Shown in pieces: positions 2,426 to 11,631 of a stretch of 41,340 nt of DNA (position 1 is the first letter of the stretch; the number at the start of each line of letters is the position of its first letter). A program made the position numbers and the translations under genes. Where the stretch lies: positions 1-41,340 of the forward strand of contig DVKJ01000040.1 of NCBI GenBank assembly GCA_018716065.1, given 5' to 3'. Source of the stretch: Candidatus Pelethosoma merdigallinarum. Its GTDB lineage: Bacteria; Bacillota_I; Bacilli_A; RF39; UBA660. The notes under the pieces are model-generated. The model did not search any database, was not told the origin of the DNA, and saw nothing but the letters and a program-made list of their open reading frames with translations.

Positions 2426-2485
2426 TATCTTCTTCCAAAAAAGTATGATATAATGATTTTATATTTAAAGAACGAGGGTGAAACA

Positions 2486-3919
2486 ATGAGTAATGTAAAA
2501 AACGATGCCATTTGCTCTATGGATAAAGATTTCGCACAATGGTATACAGATGTATGTCGAAAAGCAGAATTAATGGATTATAGTAGTGTCAAAGGGTTTA
2601 TTATTTATCGTCCTTATGGATATGCAATTTGGGAAAATATTCAAAAAGAACTAGATCAAAAATTTAAAGCATCTGGTCATGAGAATGTATATATGCCTAT
2701 GTTGATACCAACTTCTTTACTACAAAAAGAAGCGGATCACGTAGAAGGATTTGCGCCAGAATGTGCGGTTGTTACCAAGGGTGGATTAGAGGATTTAGAA
2801 GAACCACTAGTCATTCGTCCAACGAGTGAAACGTTATTCTGTGAACACTATGCAAAAATCGTAAATTCTTATCGCGATTTACCAAAAAAATATAACCAAT
2901 GGTGTAGTGTTGTCCGTTGGGAAAAAACAACAAGACCATTCTTACGTGGAAGTGAATTCTTATGGCAAGAAGGTCATACCATTCATGCGACGGAAGAAGA
3001 AGCAAAAAGTGAAACCTTACAAATGTTACAAATTTATAAAGATACTTGTAAAGATTTACTTGCTATTCCAATGGTTACAGGTCTTAAAACGGAAAAAGAA
3101 AAGTTTGCCGGTGCCGAAGAAACTTATACCATTGAAGCCTTAATGCACGATGGAAAAGCTCTTCAATCGGGAACCAGCCATTATTTTGGTCAAGGATTTG
3201 CCAAAGCTTTTGATATGAAATTTTTAAACAAAGAAAATAAACAAGAATACGTATATCAAACTTCTTGGGGTGTATCTACCAGATTAATAGGTGCAGTTAT
3301 TATGGTTCACGGAGATAATAATGGATTAGTATTACCTCCAAGAGTCGCACCAACACAAATTGTAATTGTTCCCATTCGTCAACAACAAGAAGGGGTCTTA
3401 GAACAAGCTTATAAACTAGAAAAAGAATTAAAAGAACAAGGACTTCGTGTACGTGTAGATGCCTCTGATAAATCTCCTGGATGGAAATTTAGCGAAGCTG
3501 AAATGCGTGGAGTTCCACTTCGTATTGAATTAGGACCAAAAGATATTGAAAATAAACAATGTGTTGTTGTAAAACGTAATGATGGTGTAAAACAAACCAT
3601 GAGTTTAGATGATACATTAGCTCAAAAAATTCAAGATCTATTAGATCAAATGCATGATGAAATGTATGCCAAGGCAAAAAAACACTTAGAAGAACATATG
3701 ACACGTGTAAACACAATGGATGAATTTGTCGATGTTTTAGAAAATAAAACTGGATTTGTTCAAGCACCATGGTGTGGGGATACTGAATGTGAATTAAAAA
3801 TCAAAGAACAAACAACCGCAACGAGTCGTTGTATTACAGAAGAAGAAGTACACGATGAAACTTGTATTTGTTGTGGTAAAAAAGCAAAGAAGATTGTAAA
3901 CTTTGCAAAGAGTTATTAA
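2486..3919 (+). CDS. proS: Prolyl-tRNA synthetase (short ProS type); ORF track starts 11 codons upstream of the likely ATG
   Basis: Class II aaRS motifs ([45 protein letters not shown]); ATG at 2486 preceded by a purine-rich SD (aacgaggg). Confidence 0.95.
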
Positions 3920-3929
3920 CAATATACAT

Positions 3930-3976
3930 GGGGGGGGGTATCTGGTATTGATATTTTCCTTCTTTTTTTGTACAAT
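3930..3976 (+). promoter_or_regulatory. Poly-G promoter A: G9 (3930-3938), 9 nt, -35 TTGATA (3948-3953), 17-bp spacer, -10 TACAAT (3971-3976)
   Basis: Read directly; same architecture as 10227-10273 upstream of the paralogous gene. Confidence 0.8.
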
Positions 3977-4019
3977 GAAATCAAGATAAACTTGTATTAC
4001 AAAAAGGAAGGGAACAGAT

Positions 4020-6215
4020 ATGAGATTAAAAAGGAAAATAAAAAAGAAATGGAAAAATATCGGAACAAATCAAAAAATTATGTTTCTTTTTGTTGTGATA
4101 CTTTCTTTCATAACGGTAGGTTATGCCGTAATTAATCAAGCATTAAAAATAACTAGTTATGCAAGTATCGATAAAGGAGACGGCATGATATTTACCAGCA
4201 TTGGTATAAAAGCAAATAATGGAGCAACCATAGAGAAAGATGCCTCTATTAAAACGAAAACATTAGTGAATACCCAAGTAAGTTTTCAAAATGCAGGATC
4301 CATTACCTTTAACGTATCTGCCCAAAATCAGGGAACTACAGATGCGAAATTAATTGAAATCAAAGGATTAGAACAAAGTAACATCAAAGAACCAACATGT
4401 ATTCAAGTATCGGTACAGGATCACAATGTAGGAGACCTTGTTTATCCAAATCAAGTTAAAAAATTTACCATTACCATAACGAGTACATGTTCAACTTATT
4501 CAAGTAAAGAACTAGACTTACATTTTGTTTATGAAAAACAAGAAACGATTAATGGAGTGTTACCAGTCTATGATTTAGGAGATAAAACGAATGATTTATT
4601 AGATAACAGTACAGACGGCACTTATAATTATATGGATGGAACGTATCTAAAAGGAAATCAAGATTCTAACTATGTGTGGTTCGATGGTTTTTTATGGCGA
4701 ATTATGGGAAAGAATGCGGATGGCAGTATTCGTATGATTACGGAAGAAAATGTTACATCGATTCCATGGGGGGCACATGATACAGCTAAAGACTATGACA
4801 ATAGTTATGTAAATGATTGGTTGAATAATTATTTTTATCCAAAATTAGAACACAAAGATTTACTCGTAAATCAAACATGGTGTAGTGAAACAACAACGGA
4901 TGATGAATCTGCACGTACAACTTGTACAAACAATCTATCTAAAATACAAAAACCAGTAGGATTAATATCAATAGATGAGTATAATTTAGCAAGTGCAAGT
5001 TCAAGTTATTTAGTAAATTCACAATGGTTTTGGACATTTACACCACGTGGTACATCGTCTGTGTGGGATGTACTCGATAATGGAAATGCGGATATCTACG
5101 GTGTCGTGGCGGGTACGGGCGGTGTCCGCCCAGTTGTAGGAATTTCCTCTGGTGTGATCATTACCGGAGGCAATGGTGCTTTAACGGATCCATATATCAT
5201 TGAAGAATTAAGTGATGTAACAGGAAGCTTAAAAGATCATAGTCATGTAGGAGAATATGTAACGTATGCTGGAAGAAATTATCGAGTAGTAGAAACATCA
5301 AGTCAAGGAACAAAATTAATCTTAGATGGATATTATGATAGTAATAATGATGGAACAATAGCCAGTTCAGATAAAATGCAATACGGAACAAATTGTACGT
5401 TATGTACAACAATAAATGAGGATACATTTATCAATTGGATTAGTAATAATAATGAAACAGATAAAAACAAGCTAGTCTCAACCACATGGTATCGAGGAGG
5501 CTATTGGGAAGGAGAAGATTATAAAACAAACTTAGAAAGTACAGCTAATCCATATGAAGGAAGAGTAGGATTAATTAGAGTAGGAGAAATGTTATCGGGG
5601 CAAAGTGAAACAATTATTTCCAAATATCATACAACAAGTAATAGTGATACAAATGCTCAAACTTATTGGACAACTACGCCATATAGTGCATGGGATGCGT
5701 GGCGCGTAAACACTGCTGGTAATGCGTACCACTACAATGATACGGATATGCTTGCTATTCGTCCAGTTATCATGATTCATCCAGGTGTACCTATTACAGG
5801 AGGACAAGGAACACCAAATGAACCATATACATTAGGAGAAGCTCCACTAACAGCTGCTCAATATTTAATTAAAAATAAAGTAAGTAGTGATATTAACACG
5901 AGTCCAACGAATGGATTATTTGCGATTGGAAATAGTGGAGAATTAACAACATCATCTTCTCCAAGAGAATATCGATATATTGGTGCAAATCCAGATAACT
6001 ATATCCGATTTAATAATGAATTGTGGCGTATTATTGGAATCTTTGATGGGCAATTGAAAATCATTAGAAATGATTCCATAGGAAATATAGCCTGGGATAA
6101 TAATAGTATTAATGATTGGAGTACTGCTACATTACAAGTCTATTTAAATAATGATTATTATGAAATGATTCGTGTTGAAGACAAAAAAAGATTGATGAAT
6201 ATACATGGAAATTAG
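4020..6215 (+). CDS. Large surface protein: signal-anchor, TasA/camelysin-like N-terminal region and three DUF6273-like C-terminal domains, the third interrupted by a frameshift
   Basis: N-terminal TM (IMFLFVVILSFITVGYAVINQALKI); repeated modules with W-R-I/V, WTxTP and RP(V/T) motifs ending in G-G/T-x-G...PYxL; C-terminus diverges from paralog 10297-11631 after VYLNNDYY. Confidence 0.75.
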   Translation: MRLKRKIKKKWKNIGTNQKIMFLFVVILSFITVGYAVINQALKITSYASIDKGDGMIFTSIGIKANNGATIEKDASIKTKTLVNTQVSFQNAGSITFNVSAQNQGTTDAKLIEIKGLEQSNIKEPTCIQVSVQDHNVGDLVYPNQVKKFTITITSTCSTYSSKELDLHFVYEKQETINGVLPVYDLGDKTNDLLDNSTDGTYNYMDGTYLKGNQDSNYVWFDGFLWRIMGKNADGSIRMITEENVTSIPWGAHDTAKDYDNSYVNDWLNNYFYPKLEHKDLLVNQTWCSETTTDDESARTTCTNNLSKIQKPVGLISIDEYNLASASSSYLVNSQWFWTFTPRGTSSVWDVLDNGNADIYGVVAGTGGVRPVVGISSGVIITGGNGALTDPYIIEELSDVTGSLKDHSHVGEYVTYAGRNYRVVETSSQGTKLILDGYYDSNNDGTIASSDKMQYGTNCTLCTTINEDTFINWISNNNETDKNKLVSTTWYRGGYWEGEDYKTNLESTANPYEGRVGLIRVGEMLSGQSETIISKYHTTSNSDTNAQTYWTTTPYSAWDAWRVNTAGNAYHYNDTDMLAIRPVIMIHPGVPITGGQGTPNEPYTLGEAPLTAAQYLIKNKVSSDINTSPTNGLFAIGNSGELTTSSSPREYRYIGANPDNYIRFNNELWRIIGIFDGQLKIIRNDSIGNIAWDNNSINDWSTATLQVYLNNDYYEMIRVEDKKRLMNIHGN

Positions 6216-6649
6216 GTGGAAGTTCTACTTTTAATGATGTAACAACACAAATGTTCTATGAAAGAGAGCGAGGAACAGAAGTATATGAAGGGAGACCAAT
6301 CGAATGGGCTGGGGAAATCGCTTTAATGTATCCGAGTGATTATGGATTTTCAACCAGTGGAGGAAGTACAAACAATCGAAATGCCTGTTTAGCAAGTGCG
6401 TTATATAATTGGAATAATGTTGAAGATTGTTATAAGAATGATTGGTTATATAATAAGGATTATCAATGGACATTGACTACGCTTACCATGTATTATTATC
6501 ATGCTTTTACTATTATTTCGAGTGGTTTTGTTAGTCATGATACAGGTGTATATCACCCATTTGGAGTGAGACCCACCCTTTTTCTCCAGCCTACTGTAGA
6601 AATGGCTTCAGGTACAGGGACAAGTTCTGATCCTTATATTTTGAAATAA
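6190..6649 (+). pseudogene. Out-of-frame continuation of the 4020-6215 surface protein (C-terminal part of DUF6273-like domain 3)
   Basis: Reading KIDEYTWKLGGSSTFNDVTTQMFYERERGT...ASGTGTSSDPYILK in the next frame matches paralog KIDGDYIWKLGGSNSSNDVTAQMFYERERGT...; adding one A to A7 at 6183-6189 restores the frame. Confidence 0.8.
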
Positions 6650-6672
6650 GTGTTTATAAAAAACACTTTTTC
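6648..6672 (+). terminator. Intrinsic terminator
   Basis: AAGTGTTT-ataaa-AAACACTT then T-run. Confidence 0.7.
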
Positions 6673-6729
6673 TTTTGAAAAAATGACAGAATAGGAAAAT
6701 TCATGATACAATAATGAAGGTGATGCTAG

Positions 6730-7668
6730 ATGAAGACTATTTATAAAATGAATGATTTGGGTAAGATGGAAAAGAGTGAAACTTTTGAAACGAATAATTG
6801 GGTTCATTTAACGAGTCCAAGTGAAAGTGAGATTGATGAAATTAGTTCTACTTTTCACATTCAAAAACGTTTATTATTAAAACTATTAGATCGTAGTGAA
6901 TTACCACGAATTGAAGTGTCTCATAATAATGTTTTAGTCGTTATTGATCTTCCTTATACCGTAGAATATGCAAAAAAGAAGAAATATCGCGTTATGCCTT
7001 TAGGAATTATCTTAATGAAAAATGGTATGATTACAATTGCTAATCAGGAGCACCCTCTAATTTTAGATGTGAAACAAAATCCGCCAGTCGATTTATCCTT
7101 AGAAAATAAGAAAAATTTTCTACTATATTTAATAGGGAAGAGTGTAGAATATTATTTAAAATATTTAAATGAAATTCAAGAAGATATTCGTGCGAAAGAA
7201 GCAATTCTTGTAAAAGCAACCAATAATAAAGAATTGGTTCATATGCTTACACTAGAAAAAAGTTTAGTTTATTTCATCACTTCTTTAAAAGGAAATCAAG
7301 TGGTATTGGAAAAACTAGAAACATTACCTATTATTTCTTTAGAAGAAAAAGAATTAGAGCTATTACGTGATGTTAAAATTGAAACGAATCAAGCCATTGA
7401 AATGACAAATATTTATCGTGAAATCTTGGATAGTACAATGGATACTTATGGTACGGTTATTTCGAATAATTTAAATGATGTTATGAAGTTTTTAACTTCT
7501 ATTACCTTAGTTATTTCTATACCAACCATGATTGCGTCCTTTTTGGGAATGAACGTCCCTCTGGGAGAAGTTGGTGTAAATCCATTATCCTTTTTATTCT
7601 TAGTTCTTCTTTCGATTATAGTTTCTGTTGTTTTGATTGTTATTTTACATAGGAAGAATTTGTTATAA
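6730..7668 (+). CDS. corA: CorA-family magnesium/divalent cation transporter
   Basis: 312 aa; two C-terminal TMs with the GMNVPLG (GMN) motif. Confidence 0.88.
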   Translation: MKTIYKMNDLGKMEKSETFETNNWVHLTSPSESEIDEISSTFHIQKRLLLKLLDRSELPRIEVSHNNVLVVIDLPYTVEYAKKKKYRVMPLGIILMKNGMITIANQEHPLILDVKQNPPVDLSLENKKNFLLYLIGKSVEYYLKYLNEIQEDIRAKEAILVKATNNKELVHMLTLEKSLVYFITSLKGNQVVLEKLETLPIISLEEKELELLRDVKIETNQAIEMTNIYREILDSTMDTYGTVISNNLNDVMKFLTSITLVISIPTMIASFLGMNVPLGEVGVNPLSFLFLVLLSIIVSVVLIVILHRKNLL

Positions 7669-8264
7669 TGAAAGTATTAATATCTAGTACTTTTTCAGAA
7701 GTGAAAGAAGAAGATTATATTATTCATAAAGAATTTAAAGAACAAAACGTTTCCATTCCATTTGAAAAACAAGTATTTAAACATTGTTTATTTGAAAATG
7801 TGAATTGGGATAGTGAGATTTATCGTGTAGAATTTGAGGATTGTGAATTTAAAAACTGTGATCTATCCAATTTGGATTTTAGTAATATTTGTATCCAAGA
7901 TTGTTCTTTTAAAGATTGTAAAATGATAGGAAGTAATTTTAGTGAAAGTGTATTAAAGAAAGTAATATTTCAAGATTGTATTTTAAAATATAGTAATTTT
8001 TCATTTACTAGATTAGAAGAGGTTACGATTAAAAATGCTTATTTGGTAGGTAGTAGTTTTAATGAAACAAGATTTAAAAAGACTACAATTACAGATAGTC
8101 ATTTAGAAGAATGTGAGTTTTTCCATACTTCTTTAAAAAATATGGATTTTACAACCAATCAAATTACAGGAATTAAAACAACGATGGATGCTTTACAAGG
8201 ATTAAAAATTAATGAATTTCAAGCATTAGAACTGATTCATCTTTTAGGTGTTATTGTTATATAG
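7668..8264 (+). CDS. Pentapeptide-repeat protein
   Basis: Repeated FxxCxFKNCDLSNLDFSN / CSFKDCKMIGSNFSES pattern; TAATG overlap with the preceding corA stop. Confidence 0.85.
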   Translation: MKVLISSTFSEVKEEDYIIHKEFKEQNVSIPFEKQVFKHCLFENVNWDSEIYRVEFEDCEFKNCDLSNLDFSNICIQDCSFKDCKMIGSNFSESVLKKVIFQDCILKYSNFSFTRLEEVTIKNAYLVGSSFNETRFKKTTITDSHLEECEFFHTSLKNMDFTTNQITGIKTTMDALQGLKINEFQALELIHLLGVIVI

Positions 8265-8276
8265 GAAGGTGATAGA

Positions 8277-9401
8277 ATGATTTATTTGGATTATAGTGCG
8301 ACGACACCGGTCGCAACAGAGGTATTGGATACGTTTGTAAAAACATCAAAAAATTATATAGGGAATCCTAATTCTTTACACACACTTGGTGTAAAGTCAA
8401 AAAAACTAATGGATCAAGCAACGCTTCAAATAACGCAGTTGTTAGGAGTTCAAAAGAACGAATTAATTTATACTAGTGGGGCAACGGAATCAAATAATTT
8501 AGCAATTAAAGGAATTGTAGGAAAGTATCCCAATCGTGGGAAACAAATTATTACAACTTCTTTAGAACATTCTTCCATTTTAGAACCTCTACACCAATTA
8601 GAAAATCAAGGTTATCACATTCGTTATGTTCATCTTTTACAAGATGGTACAGTAGATCTTGTTCATTTAAAAAAACTATTAGAGGAAGAAGATACAGTTC
8701 TTGTTAGTATTGCGATGACGAGTAGTGAAGTAGGTATTCTTCAGCCGATTGAAGAGATCGGAGAAATCATAAAAGAATATCCAAAGTGTTTCTTTCATTC
8801 CGATATTACGCAAGCTCTTGGAAAAGTTCCAGTATCTTTACAGAATGTAGATTTAGCTAGTTTTTCTGCTCATAAATTTTATGGATTAAAAGGAATTGGT
8901 GGACTTGTAAAAAAAGAAAAAGTGGAGTTAAAACCTTTATTTGATGGAGGAAAAAGTACAACGAGATACCGTAGTGGAACACCCGCACTTGCCCTTATTA
9001 CCTCTTTAGCCAAAGCTCTTCGATTAAGTTTAGAAACGATAAATGTAGAATATGTAAAACAGTTAAATGATAAAATACAAATGAAATTAAAAGAAATACT
9101 TGATGTTCATATAAATAGTACTTCACAAAGTATTCCGCACATTTTAAATATCAGTGTTCATGGGGTGAAACCGGAAACTTTGTTACACGCATTAGAAGAA
9201 AAAGATATTTATATTTCTACCATGAGTGCTTGTTCAAGTTCTCAAAGTGAATCTTTAGCTGTTAAAAGTGTGACTCATAATACACTGGATGCGACTACCA
9301 GTATTCGTATTAGTTTATCGGTTCATACCACTCAAGAAGAAGTGGATACCTTTCTTAAGGTATTCAAAGAAGTTATATCAAAATTGAGGTTGAGATCATG
9401 A
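8277..9401 (+). CDS. Cysteine desulfurase, NifS/IscS-like class V aminotransferase
   Basis: MIYLDYSATTPVATEVL, TSGATESNNLAIKG, SFSAHKFYGLKGIGGL (PLP lysine), RSGTPA. Confidence 0.93.
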   Translation: MIYLDYSATTPVATEVLDTFVKTSKNYIGNPNSLHTLGVKSKKLMDQATLQITQLLGVQKNELIYTSGATESNNLAIKGIVGKYPNRGKQIITTSLEHSSILEPLHQLENQGYHIRYVHLLQDGTVDLVHLKKLLEEEDTVLVSIAMTSSEVGILQPIEEIGEIIKEYPKCFFHSDITQALGKVPVSLQNVDLASFSAHKFYGLKGIGGLVKKEKVELKPLFDGGKSTTRYRSGTPALALITSLAKALRLSLETINVEYVKQLNDKIQMKLKEILDVHINSTSQSIPHILNISVHGVKPETLLHALEEKDIYISTMSACSSSQSESLAVKSVTHNTLDATTSIRISLSVHTTQEEVDTFLKVFKEVISKLRLRS

Positions 9402-9970
9402 GAAAAATATTATTTACGATTTTATGTTTCTTTTGTCTTTTATCTATGACCCAAGCAAAAGAAAAAGTTGATGTTTATTTATTTTATGGAGACGGATGTC
9501 CTCATTGTAAAGCTGAAAAAGAATTGTTTTCGAAGATGAAAGATTCGGACATTGAAATCCATGAATTGGAAGTATGGGAGAATGAAGAAAATCAAAAGTT
9601 TTTAGAAAACGTTATTGAAACAATGGATTTATCAGTATCAGGAGTTCCTGTTACGATTATTGGTTCTTCTTATATAACTGGTTATATGGAAGAGTACGAA
9701 TATACCATTAAAAGAATGATTGATACTTGTAAAAAAGAAAATTGTAAAGATTATGTTTCGTTAATTAAAAAAGGAGAGACAGACGTTCCTAAAGCAGAAA
9801 AAGTAGGAGTATCCATGGATGATCGTGTTCAATATAGTATTCAATATTCCTTCTTTGATTGGAATGATAAGTATTTAATTGGAGCTTTGATTATTGCCTT
9901 TTTATACTTTTTGTTTATCTGTTTTAAAATCTTTCGAAAAAGGCGTAAAAAACAATTGACTAATCATTAA
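9398..9970 (+). CDS. Membrane-anchored thioredoxin-like protein (CPHC)
   Basis: N-terminal signal, VYLFYGDGCPHCKAEKELF, VSGVPVTIIG cis-Pro motif, C-terminal TM. Confidence 0.8.
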   Translation: MRKILFTILCFFCLLSMTQAKEKVDVYLFYGDGCPHCKAEKELFSKMKDSDIEIHELEVWENEENQKFLENVIETMDLSVSGVPVTIIGSSYITGYMEEYEYTIKRMIDTCKKENCKDYVSLIKKGETDVPKAEKVGVSMDDRVQYSIQYSFFDWNDKYLIGALIIAFLYFLFICFKIFRKRRKKQLTNH

Positions 9971-9984
9971 AAACTACTTATAAT
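9956..9984 (+). promoter_or_regulatory. Promoter of the small ORF at 10010: TTGACT (9956-9961), 17-bp spacer, TATAAT (9979-9984)
   Basis: Near-consensus sigma-A hexamers with 17-bp spacing. Confidence 0.65.
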
Positions 9985-10009
9985 AAGACCTTAATTGGAG
10001 GTCTTAACC

Positions 10010-10213
10010 ATGGAAGAAGTAAAATTAAAAGAATTCGCGACACTTGTTTTTGATGCAAGAAAAAAATTAGATTATGTATCTTTAATGAAAGCTCGTAATT
10101 ATCACGAATCAATGACCGTAACTCAAAAAATGTATCCTGTTTATATCAAATTATTTCGTGAACTTAACTATTTGATTGATCAATATAATTTGGAGTTTTC
10201 AAAAATTCACTAG
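10010..10213 (+). CDS. Small conserved-looking hypothetical protein (67 aa)
   Basis: ATG at 10010 with GGAGG SD at 9997-10001; the ORF-track start at 9995 is TTG just upstream of the SD. Confidence 0.65.
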   Translation: MEEVKLKEFATLVFDARKKLDYVSLMKARNYHESMTVTQKMYPVYIKLFRELNYLIDQYNLEFSKIH

Positions 10214-10226
10214 TATTTATATGCAT

Positions 10227-10273
10227 GGGGGGGGGTATTTGGTCTTGACAAATACTTCTCTTTTTTGTACAAT
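10227..10273 (+). promoter_or_regulatory. Poly-G promoter B: G9 (10227-10235), 9 nt, -35 TTGACA (10245-10250), 17-bp spacer, -10 TACAAT (10268-10273)
   Basis: Read directly; matches poly-G promoter A in tract length, spacing and flanking bases. Confidence 0.8.
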
Positions 10274-10296
10274 GATATAAGAATAGGAGTGAATTT

Positions 10297-11631
10297 ATGA
10301 GAACACGACAAAAACAAAGAATAATCATTGGAACACTATGTGCGGTAATTATAGGACTAGCTGTAGGGTATGCGGTACTAAGTCAACAATTAACTATCAA
10401 CGGAACAGGAGGAATCGCATCGGATTTTAATGTTTTATTTACAGATATTGTGGAAGGAACGATGAATGGGGCGACAACAATAAATAAACAAATTACAGAT
10501 TCTACCACGGCAACATTCACGATTGACCTTAAATCGCCTGGATCCAATGGTGAATATTTGATTACGGTAGAGAATCGAGGAACGATTGATGCGATGGTAG
10601 AGAGTATTAGTGGAATTGATGAGGCCAATCAAGCCGCACCAACTGATATTACTTTTAGTATTTCAGATATCGCAGTAAATGATAAGCTTCCAGCAAAAGA
10701 ATCTAAAGTGTTTAAGGTAAAGGTAGACTGGAGTAGTGCATCAACTTCTATTCCAAGTACGAATAAAAATTTAACACTAAAAATTAACTTTGTGCAAGAT
10801 GCAAGTAGTACACCAACGCCTAAAACTGCGGCAGAATATTTAATTAATAATAAGTTGAGTAGTGATATTAATACAAGTCCAACGAATGGTTTATTTGCGA
10901 TTGATAATCAAGGAGAATTAACCACATCAGATTCTCCAAGAGAGTATCGTTACATTGGATCCGATCCAGATAACTATATCCAATTTAACAATGAATTATG
11001 GAGAATCATAGGAATCTTTAATGGTCAATTGAAGATTATTAGAAACGAATCATTAGGTAAAATGGTATGGGATAGTAATGACATTAATGATTGGAGTAAA
11101 GCATCCTTACAAGTCTACCTAAATAACGATTATTACGGAACGATCGATCCAGAAAACCAGTCCAAGATAGATGGTGATTATATATGGAAACTAGGAGGAA
11201 GTAATTCTTCTAATGATGTAACAGCTCAAATGTTTTATGAAAGGGAAAGAGGAACAACGGTATACAGTGGAAACCCAACAGAATGGGCAGGAAGTATTGC
11301 CTTAATGTATCCAAGTGATTATGGATTTTCAACCAGTGGAGGAAGTACAACAAATCGAAGTAGTTGTCTAGCAACAGTATTATATGGTTGGAGTGATGCA
11401 GAAGATTGTTATACAAATAGTTGGTTATATGATAGTTCAACTATGCAGTGGACACTAACCCATGTTGCGTCATATTCAGAGAGCGTGTTCGGTGTGTACT
11501 ATTCCGGTTATGTGCTTTCCAGCATGATTGCGTACGATTCGAATGCGGTTCGCCCTACATTATATCTCTTGTCTGATGTAGAAATTGCTTCTGGTACAGG
11601 TACAAGTTCTGATCCGTATATCTTGAAATAA
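10297..11631 (+). CDS. Surface protein: signal-anchor, TasA/camelysin-like region and one DUF6273-like C-terminal domain; intact paralog of 4020-6649
   Basis: RIIIGTLCAVIIGLAVGYAVLSQQLTINGTGG N-terminus; NELWRIIGIFNGQLKIIRN...VRPTLYL...GTGTSSDPYILK C-terminus. Confidence 0.8.
   Translation: MRTRQKQRIIIGTLCAVIIGLAVGYAVLSQQLTINGTGGIASDFNVLFTDIVEGTMNGATTINKQITDSTTATFTIDLKSPGSNGEYLITVENRGTIDAMVESISGIDEANQAAPTDITFSISDIAVNDKLPAKESKVFKVKVDWSSASTSIPSTNKNLTLKINFVQDASSTPTPKTAAEYLINNKLSSDINTSPTNGLFAIDNQGELTTSDSPREYRYIGSDPDNYIQFNNELWRIIGIFNGQLKIIRNESLGKMVWDSNDINDWSKASLQVYLNNDYYGTIDPENQSKIDGDYIWKLGGSNSSNDVTAQMFYERERGTTVYSGNPTEWAGSIALMYPSDYGFSTSGGSTTNRSSCLATVLYGWSDAEDCYTNSWLYDSSTMQWTLTHVASYSESVFGVYYSGYVLSSMIAYDSNAVRPTLYLLSDVEIASGTGTSSDPYILK

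Follow-up and report, generated by a model that had tools for sequence, protein, structure and literature searches.

In Neisseria, the phase-variable promoters of porA and opc carry a homopolymer in the spacer between the -35 and -10 elements. In Mycoplasma gallisepticum, exactly 12 repeats mark the active vlhA gene (PMC6258824), and in the gut Gram-positive Bifidobacterium breve slippage of a G-tract governs a surface structure, the pilus (PMC9187656). We found no paper in the open-access literature on phase variation in RF39-type bacteria, and none on poly-G promoters in Firmicutes MAGs.

The window analysed here is a stretch of 41,340 nucleotides from Candidatus Pelethosoma merdigallinarum, contig 23 of an assembly of 66 contigs (1.32 Mb, 91% complete). 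A preliminary description had proposed that two tracts of nine G (G9) belong to a promoter family common to two paralogous surface-protein genes, and that changes in G number switch each gene independently. The architecture is as described at both sites, with G9 placed 9 nt from the -35 element (TTGATA or TTGACA), 17-nt spacers and a TACAAT -10 element. The features are as follows.

2453-3919, + strand: proS, proline--tRNA ligase (TIGR00408, 630 bits), upstream and co-directional, its stop codon 10 nt before G9
3930-3938, + strand: site 1 G9 tract, 5' arm of the hairpin
3930-3962, + strand: site 1 hairpin, GGGGGGGGGTATC-tggtatt-GATATTTTCCTTC, 13 bp with a 7-nt loop, RNA fold -13.9 kcal/mol
3948-3953, + strand: site 1 -35 element TTGATA, overlapping the hairpin loop and 3' arm
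3963-3969, + strand: site 1 T7 run, directly 3' of the stem and within the promoter spacer
3971-3976, + strand: site 1 -10 element TACAAT, spacer 17
4020-6215, + strand: SipW-type exported surface protein, 731 aa, DUF6273 (PF19789, 1.5e-8)
10010-10213, + strand: small ORF upstream of site 2, its stop 13 nt before G9
10227-10235, + strand: site 2 G9 tract, 5' arm of the hairpin
10228-10262, + strand: site 2 hairpin, TATTTG-gtcttga-CAAATA, lengthened by G8 pairing with CTTCTCTT
10245-10250, + strand: site 2 -35 element TTGACA
10268-10273, + strand: site 2 -10 element TACAAT, spacer 17
10297-11631, + strand: SipW-type exported surface protein, 444 aa, DUF6273 (PF19789, 3.7e-5)

At site 1 the RNA folds as G9-TATC/loop/GATA-TTTTCCTTC with the T7 run immediately after; this hairpin was scored as a terminator by a rule-based scan and has p=0.03 in within-block shuffles. 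The hairpin of site 2 reaches -15.5 kcal/mol (p=0.002, within-block shuffles), or -18.5 kcal/mol with z -4.6 when the flanks are included, and its T-run, which extends to 10266, is partly paired in the hairpin. The two downstream proteins are indeed related, both having DUF6273 and N-termini with 31% identity (E 1.4e-7). The tracts are also as exceptional as had been claimed, since only one further run in the window, a G6 at 4768, reaches six G; GGGGGG has 9 matches against a shuffled mean of 2.2, and none of 100 shuffles reaches 9.

These two promoters belong to a much larger family, which extends the claim to about 20 loci. When all G-runs of at least 7 in the genome are listed, there are 17 pure G9 tracts, every one inside the same block, and four runs outside it, all G7; the listing contains no pure G8, G10 or longer run in the 1.32 Mb, and an oriented control pattern has 0 matches in the genome, which places the family far outside chance expectation. 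The proposed link with related surface genes holds for 16 of the 17 pure copies, which precede SipW-type exported proteins, the exception being a remnant block without a gene and without a -10 element (L009, G000:C20:288). The N-termini of the proteins encoded behind the blocks resemble MRTRQKQRIIIGTLCAVIIGLAVGYAVLSQ or MRLKRKIKKKWKNIG...FITVGYAVINQ, and the genome has about 25 such surface-protein paralogues. They have a short signal peptide ending in G-x-S/G-Y/F-A, the form expected at the sequence level for SipW-dependent export, and a SipW-class signal peptidase is encoded beside family members (TIGR02228 over cut-off at G000:C47:23740-24102). No NCBIfam or Pfam model for curated TasA/SipW-cognate families matches the window proteins, which match DUF6273 only. 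A search for further strains of the species gave relatives at 27-55% only, of which the one at 55% (L161) lacks a G-run; among named loci the nearest come from uncultured Bacilli or Mycoplasmatota MAGs. Six IMG/VR matches that might have been viral relatives of the block turned out to be one unrelated sequence. One subclass of copies (L002, L010, L018, L035, L049 and L092) has about 130 conserved nucleotides upstream of G9 (TTAACAAATCGCA.. followed by CCTTTAAAATAAAGG). Another locus (L015, G000:C29 about 10620-11536) is a chimera of two subfamilies, in which the N-terminus from one and the body from the other are in different frames. Together with L009 and the deletion copy L054 described below, it shows apparent signs of recombination among copies.

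The length of the tract is strikingly constant. It is nine in 17 of 17 pure copies, and three further copies carry an A within the run (GGGGGGAGG once, GGAGGGGGG twice) with the total still at nine. The sole 8-mer (L054, G000:C4:8224) is in a deletion copy, where the promoter is joined to mid-gene sequence. In a congener (G002), the pure tracts number four and are all G9, one of them at the orthologous proS position, and an A-interrupted copy, GGGGGAGGG, also keeps a total of nine. At the proS locus the two species thus have 9 and 9 G and share neither the remainder of the block nor the surface gene. Directly after the proS stop codon (locus 3919-6215 in the window, L096 in the congener), the window encodes the protein of 731 aa (MRLKRK..) and the congener one of about 447 aa (MRTRQKQ..), each with its own G9 block, which reads as cassette exchange at one locus. 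By contrast, the T-run in the spacer varies from 5 to 10 across the same 22 blocks in which G is fixed. Promoter spacers remain at 16-19, mostly 17-18, with a constant 8-9 nt between G9 and -35. Given the frequency of nine in a sister genus (9/15), 21 of 21 tracts at nine would arise by chance about 2 times in 100,000, a figure that is indicative only because the copies are not independent. Homopolymers normally accumulate indels faster than substitutions, so that A substitutions without indels in G9 point to selection on its length.

These observations leave the proposed slipped-strand switching of the window tracts unsupported. The preliminary description had itself named a length fixed at nine as evidence against it, and nine is what we find as far as the assemblies show, the genome being a population consensus in which minority tract lengths would be invisible. 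Both window sites have the mononucleotide tract of at least 8 at a promoter that is typical of slipped-strand promoters, and in the assembly data they lack length variation among copies or strains. For this last reason we do not class them as phase-variable, and phase variation at these two sites is disfavoured.

What is conserved together with tract length is a potential RNA structure. The blocks share the layout G9-stem-loop-stem-Y9-T-run, with the -35 element overlapping loop and 3' arm and the promoter spacer occupied by the T-run, and in 22 copies a stem-loop of -11 to -18.5 kcal/mol directly precedes a run of T5-T10. When G9, -35 and the T-run were held fixed and only the bases on either side were shuffled, the native energy was better than the shuffles at p<=0.031 in 21 of the 22 G9-type copies analysed; these p-values are not independent, as the copies are paralogues with shared ancestry, and RNA energies are model values. 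The weak hairpin is that of L016 (p 0.285), and L007 does not fit the layout and could not be split for the shuffle test. There are at least five inner stem sequences (TATC/GATA, TATTTG/CAAATA, TTATTG/CAATAA, TATTG/CAATA and TATATGA/TCATATA). In one register, two positions show compensatory double changes, with 100% of cells paired and 0 in slid controls (7 sequences). The A interruptions of the tract lie opposite U in all cases, of which there are only four. In a paralogue without poly-G (C54:35757), the corresponding position is taken by a Watson-Crick stem, GAGGG/CCCTC (p 0.066, -12.1 kcal/mol). At the congener locus L088 a promoter persists after loss of both the G-run and the hairpin, hence the element is not essential for the existence of a promoter. 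We rejected a cruciform or single-strand DNA hairpin, since DNA folding is weak. We also rejected a fixed operator dyad, because the axis of the inner-stem dyad shifts relative to -35 between copies and its sequence changes.

Our preferred reading, to which we give even odds, is that each block joins a sigma-70-type promoter to an RNA hairpin resembling an intrinsic terminator. As G can pair with either C or U, G9 would be a universal 5' arm for whichever nine pyrimidines come after the inner stem. RNA polymerase coming from the upstream gene would halt at the T-run, which would release the upstream transcript and double as the 3' half of the spacer; the surface gene would then be initiated just downstream by a new polymerase. 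We infer from the sequence that the block terminates transcription, that its promoter is active, and that pairing, not a protein, is what maintains G9. Several results are consistent with this. The upstream gene is co-directional in every copy where it is visible, and for about a dozen copies 6-49 nt separate its stop codon from G9 without an intervening terminator or hairpin. In the rule-based scan, site 1 was the only + strand terminator within 3500-11000. Others count against it. The stems are not GC-rich Watson-Crick stems: they have 3-5 G-C pairs in 13-15 bp, the rest being mostly G-U and A-U, and pairing of the G arm mostly by G-U is unusual for a terminator. Only 16 of 26 blocks reached a strict terminator score in the rule-based scan, the other 10 having bulges of one nt or tails too short for it. 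Finally, a distinct hairpin already precedes the block in at least five copies (L002, L004, L008, L009 and L011); termination by the block would be unneeded there, which is why we hold the fused reading no higher.

Relatives present a different picture. An unbiased search found G-runs of at least 8 in 127 of 197 family genomes, from which eight rich genomes were then listed. In many of them the run lies inside the promoter spacer, as in TTGCAA-N9-G8..10-TATAAT (G138), TTGACA-N9/10-G8..11-TATNNT (G137) and TTGACG-T-G9-TAGTTT-TATAAT (G085). Among the copies listed, spacers range from 17 to 21 across G137, G138, G100 and G063: from 17 to 21 in G137, at 17 (1), 18 (3) and 19 (16) in G138, and at 17 (1), 19 (5) and 20 (3) in G100; few spacer-type copies are at the optimal 17 bp. 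Likewise among the copies listed, G085 has spacer 16 in 29 of 32 and G9 in 27 of 32, and G008 has G8 in nearly all block copies. The downstream genes encode short signal peptides ending in GxSYA or GxSFA. Tract length varies in G137, G138, G100 and G257, as expected under slipped-strand mispairing, and runs of at least 10 are prone to assembly error, so that part of this spread may be technical. In the sister genus g3, runs of 11, 9, 9 and 5 G stand on flanks of 60 nt that differ at 0-2 positions, a second set has 10 and 9 G on flanks without mismatch, and both a second terminator and the surface gene lie downstream of the run. Across the class, TTGAC-N-G8-N-TATAAT occurs in 21 of 297 genomes, and its reversed control in 0. 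Mismatch-repair loss was rejected as a driver of slippage, since 55 of the 59 family genomes, this one included, have a mutS match above cut-off.

Some copies in relatives have features of their own. In g3 (L136-L150), G8-G11 falls in a possible small leader ORF (M-R-N..VSQKLPWGG..), and a strong hairpin, AAGTTGTTTTC..GGAAACAACTTTTTT, follows the run just upstream of the surface gene, which gives it an attenuator-like look. In G186 (L186), a LexA-box-like dyad, CGAACGTATGTTCG, adjoins a fixed G8, followed by a hairpin with a T-run and then the surface gene. In G212 (L198, L206, L214 and L222), about 18 near-identical copies of TTCTAATG9TTACTTACGCC lie upstream of one repeated gene; these G9-containing copies are probably a recent repeat family.

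The idea of phase-variable poly-G promoters therefore gains support in relatives, with their variable spacer runs and the 5/9/11 and 9/10 G of the sister genus, and not in the genus of the window. Length-variable poly-G in relatives makes phase variation plausible at the level of the clade. Judging from these patterns, some genera carry a slippage-promoter signature and others a frozen run, and the window's genus is in the frozen group.

Three other explanations of the window's G9 have to be weighed against the fused promoter and terminator. The tract could still act by slippage, turning each surface gene on or off through the spacing of an upstream contact or the strength of the hairpin, all loci being at nine in the assembled majority. 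In relatives, poly-G promoters in front of the same protein class vary in length, the on-state of vlhA in M. gallisepticum is a fixed-number repeat located about 40 nt ahead of the start (PMC6258824), and a MAG consensus conceals minority lengths. Yet pure and interrupted tracts all total nine, down to the orthologous proS locus, mutS is present in the genome, and the run lies outside promoter spacers that are all near optimal; we consider this explanation unlikely, if worth keeping in view. A fixed-length site for a dedicated regulator of the surface regulon, similar to the HAP activator proposed at (GAA)12 in vlhA, would explain the exact length and the constant 8-9 nt to -35, and would fit the other genomes with a single length (G085 and G008). 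Against such a site, the tract admits an A at three different positions and the run changes place relative to the promoter among genera; it also leaves the conserved pairing unaccounted for, and no regulator was found, which together make it improbable.

The block might alternatively serve mainly as homology for cassette exchange among surface genes, with gene conversion maintaining G9. Two species have different surface genes after one and the same proS stop, and the chimeric, deleted and gene-less copies (L015, L054 and L009) fit such exchange. But conversion would homogenise G9 and flanks alike, whereas the flanks diverge strongly among copies while G9 is constant, and the pairing is kept through sequence change; we give this explanation very little credence. 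The fused promoter and terminator is the reading that we retain.

Under it, the block of the window's genus probably descends from poly-G promoters with the run inside the spacer, as in other genera of the family, where these promoters of ancestral type may be phase-variable. More broadly, and with slightly less confidence than in the fused reading, we suggest that this family, with parts of the class, of uncultured gut Bacilli with reduced genomes controls its exported surface coat through multi-copy poly-G promoters. Several genera would use them as slippage switches with just one or a few copies at the 17-bp on-spacing at any moment, and the window's genus would have frozen the run and reused it as a terminator arm in the promoter. 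If so, a large and almost uncultured gut lineage has surface-coat switching comparable to that of Neisseria or mycoplasmas. Sequence alone would reveal it, with the on and off states given directly by promoter tract lengths in metagenomic reads. The window's genus would then illustrate how a hypermutable tract is frozen into a structural element, in which the stop for one gene and the start for the next share the same 45 bases.

Compared with known systems, the block combines familiar parts in an unfamiliar way. It shares with porA and opc of Neisseria a homopolymeric G/C tract at surface-protein promoters, with a variable run inside the spacer in family relatives, but in the window a run of invariant length nine precedes -35, in a multi-copy family with a hairpin. 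The B. breve pilus switch differs in that its tract is in coding sequence and acts by frameshift (PMC9187656), and not at a promoter as here. As in vlhA of M. gallisepticum, many paralogous surface genes have a repeat upstream of each promoter whose exact number matters; there, however, the repeat is a trinucleotide, (GAA)n, of variable number, with no sigma-70 consensus reported, whereas in the window the number is invariant and the hairpin conserved (PMC6258824). Finally, like an intrinsic (Rho-independent) terminator, the block has a stem, a loop and a T-run within 6-49 nt of the upstream stop codon; unlike one, its 5' arm is a G homopolymer that pairs largely by G-U, and the promoter of the next gene lies inside the element.
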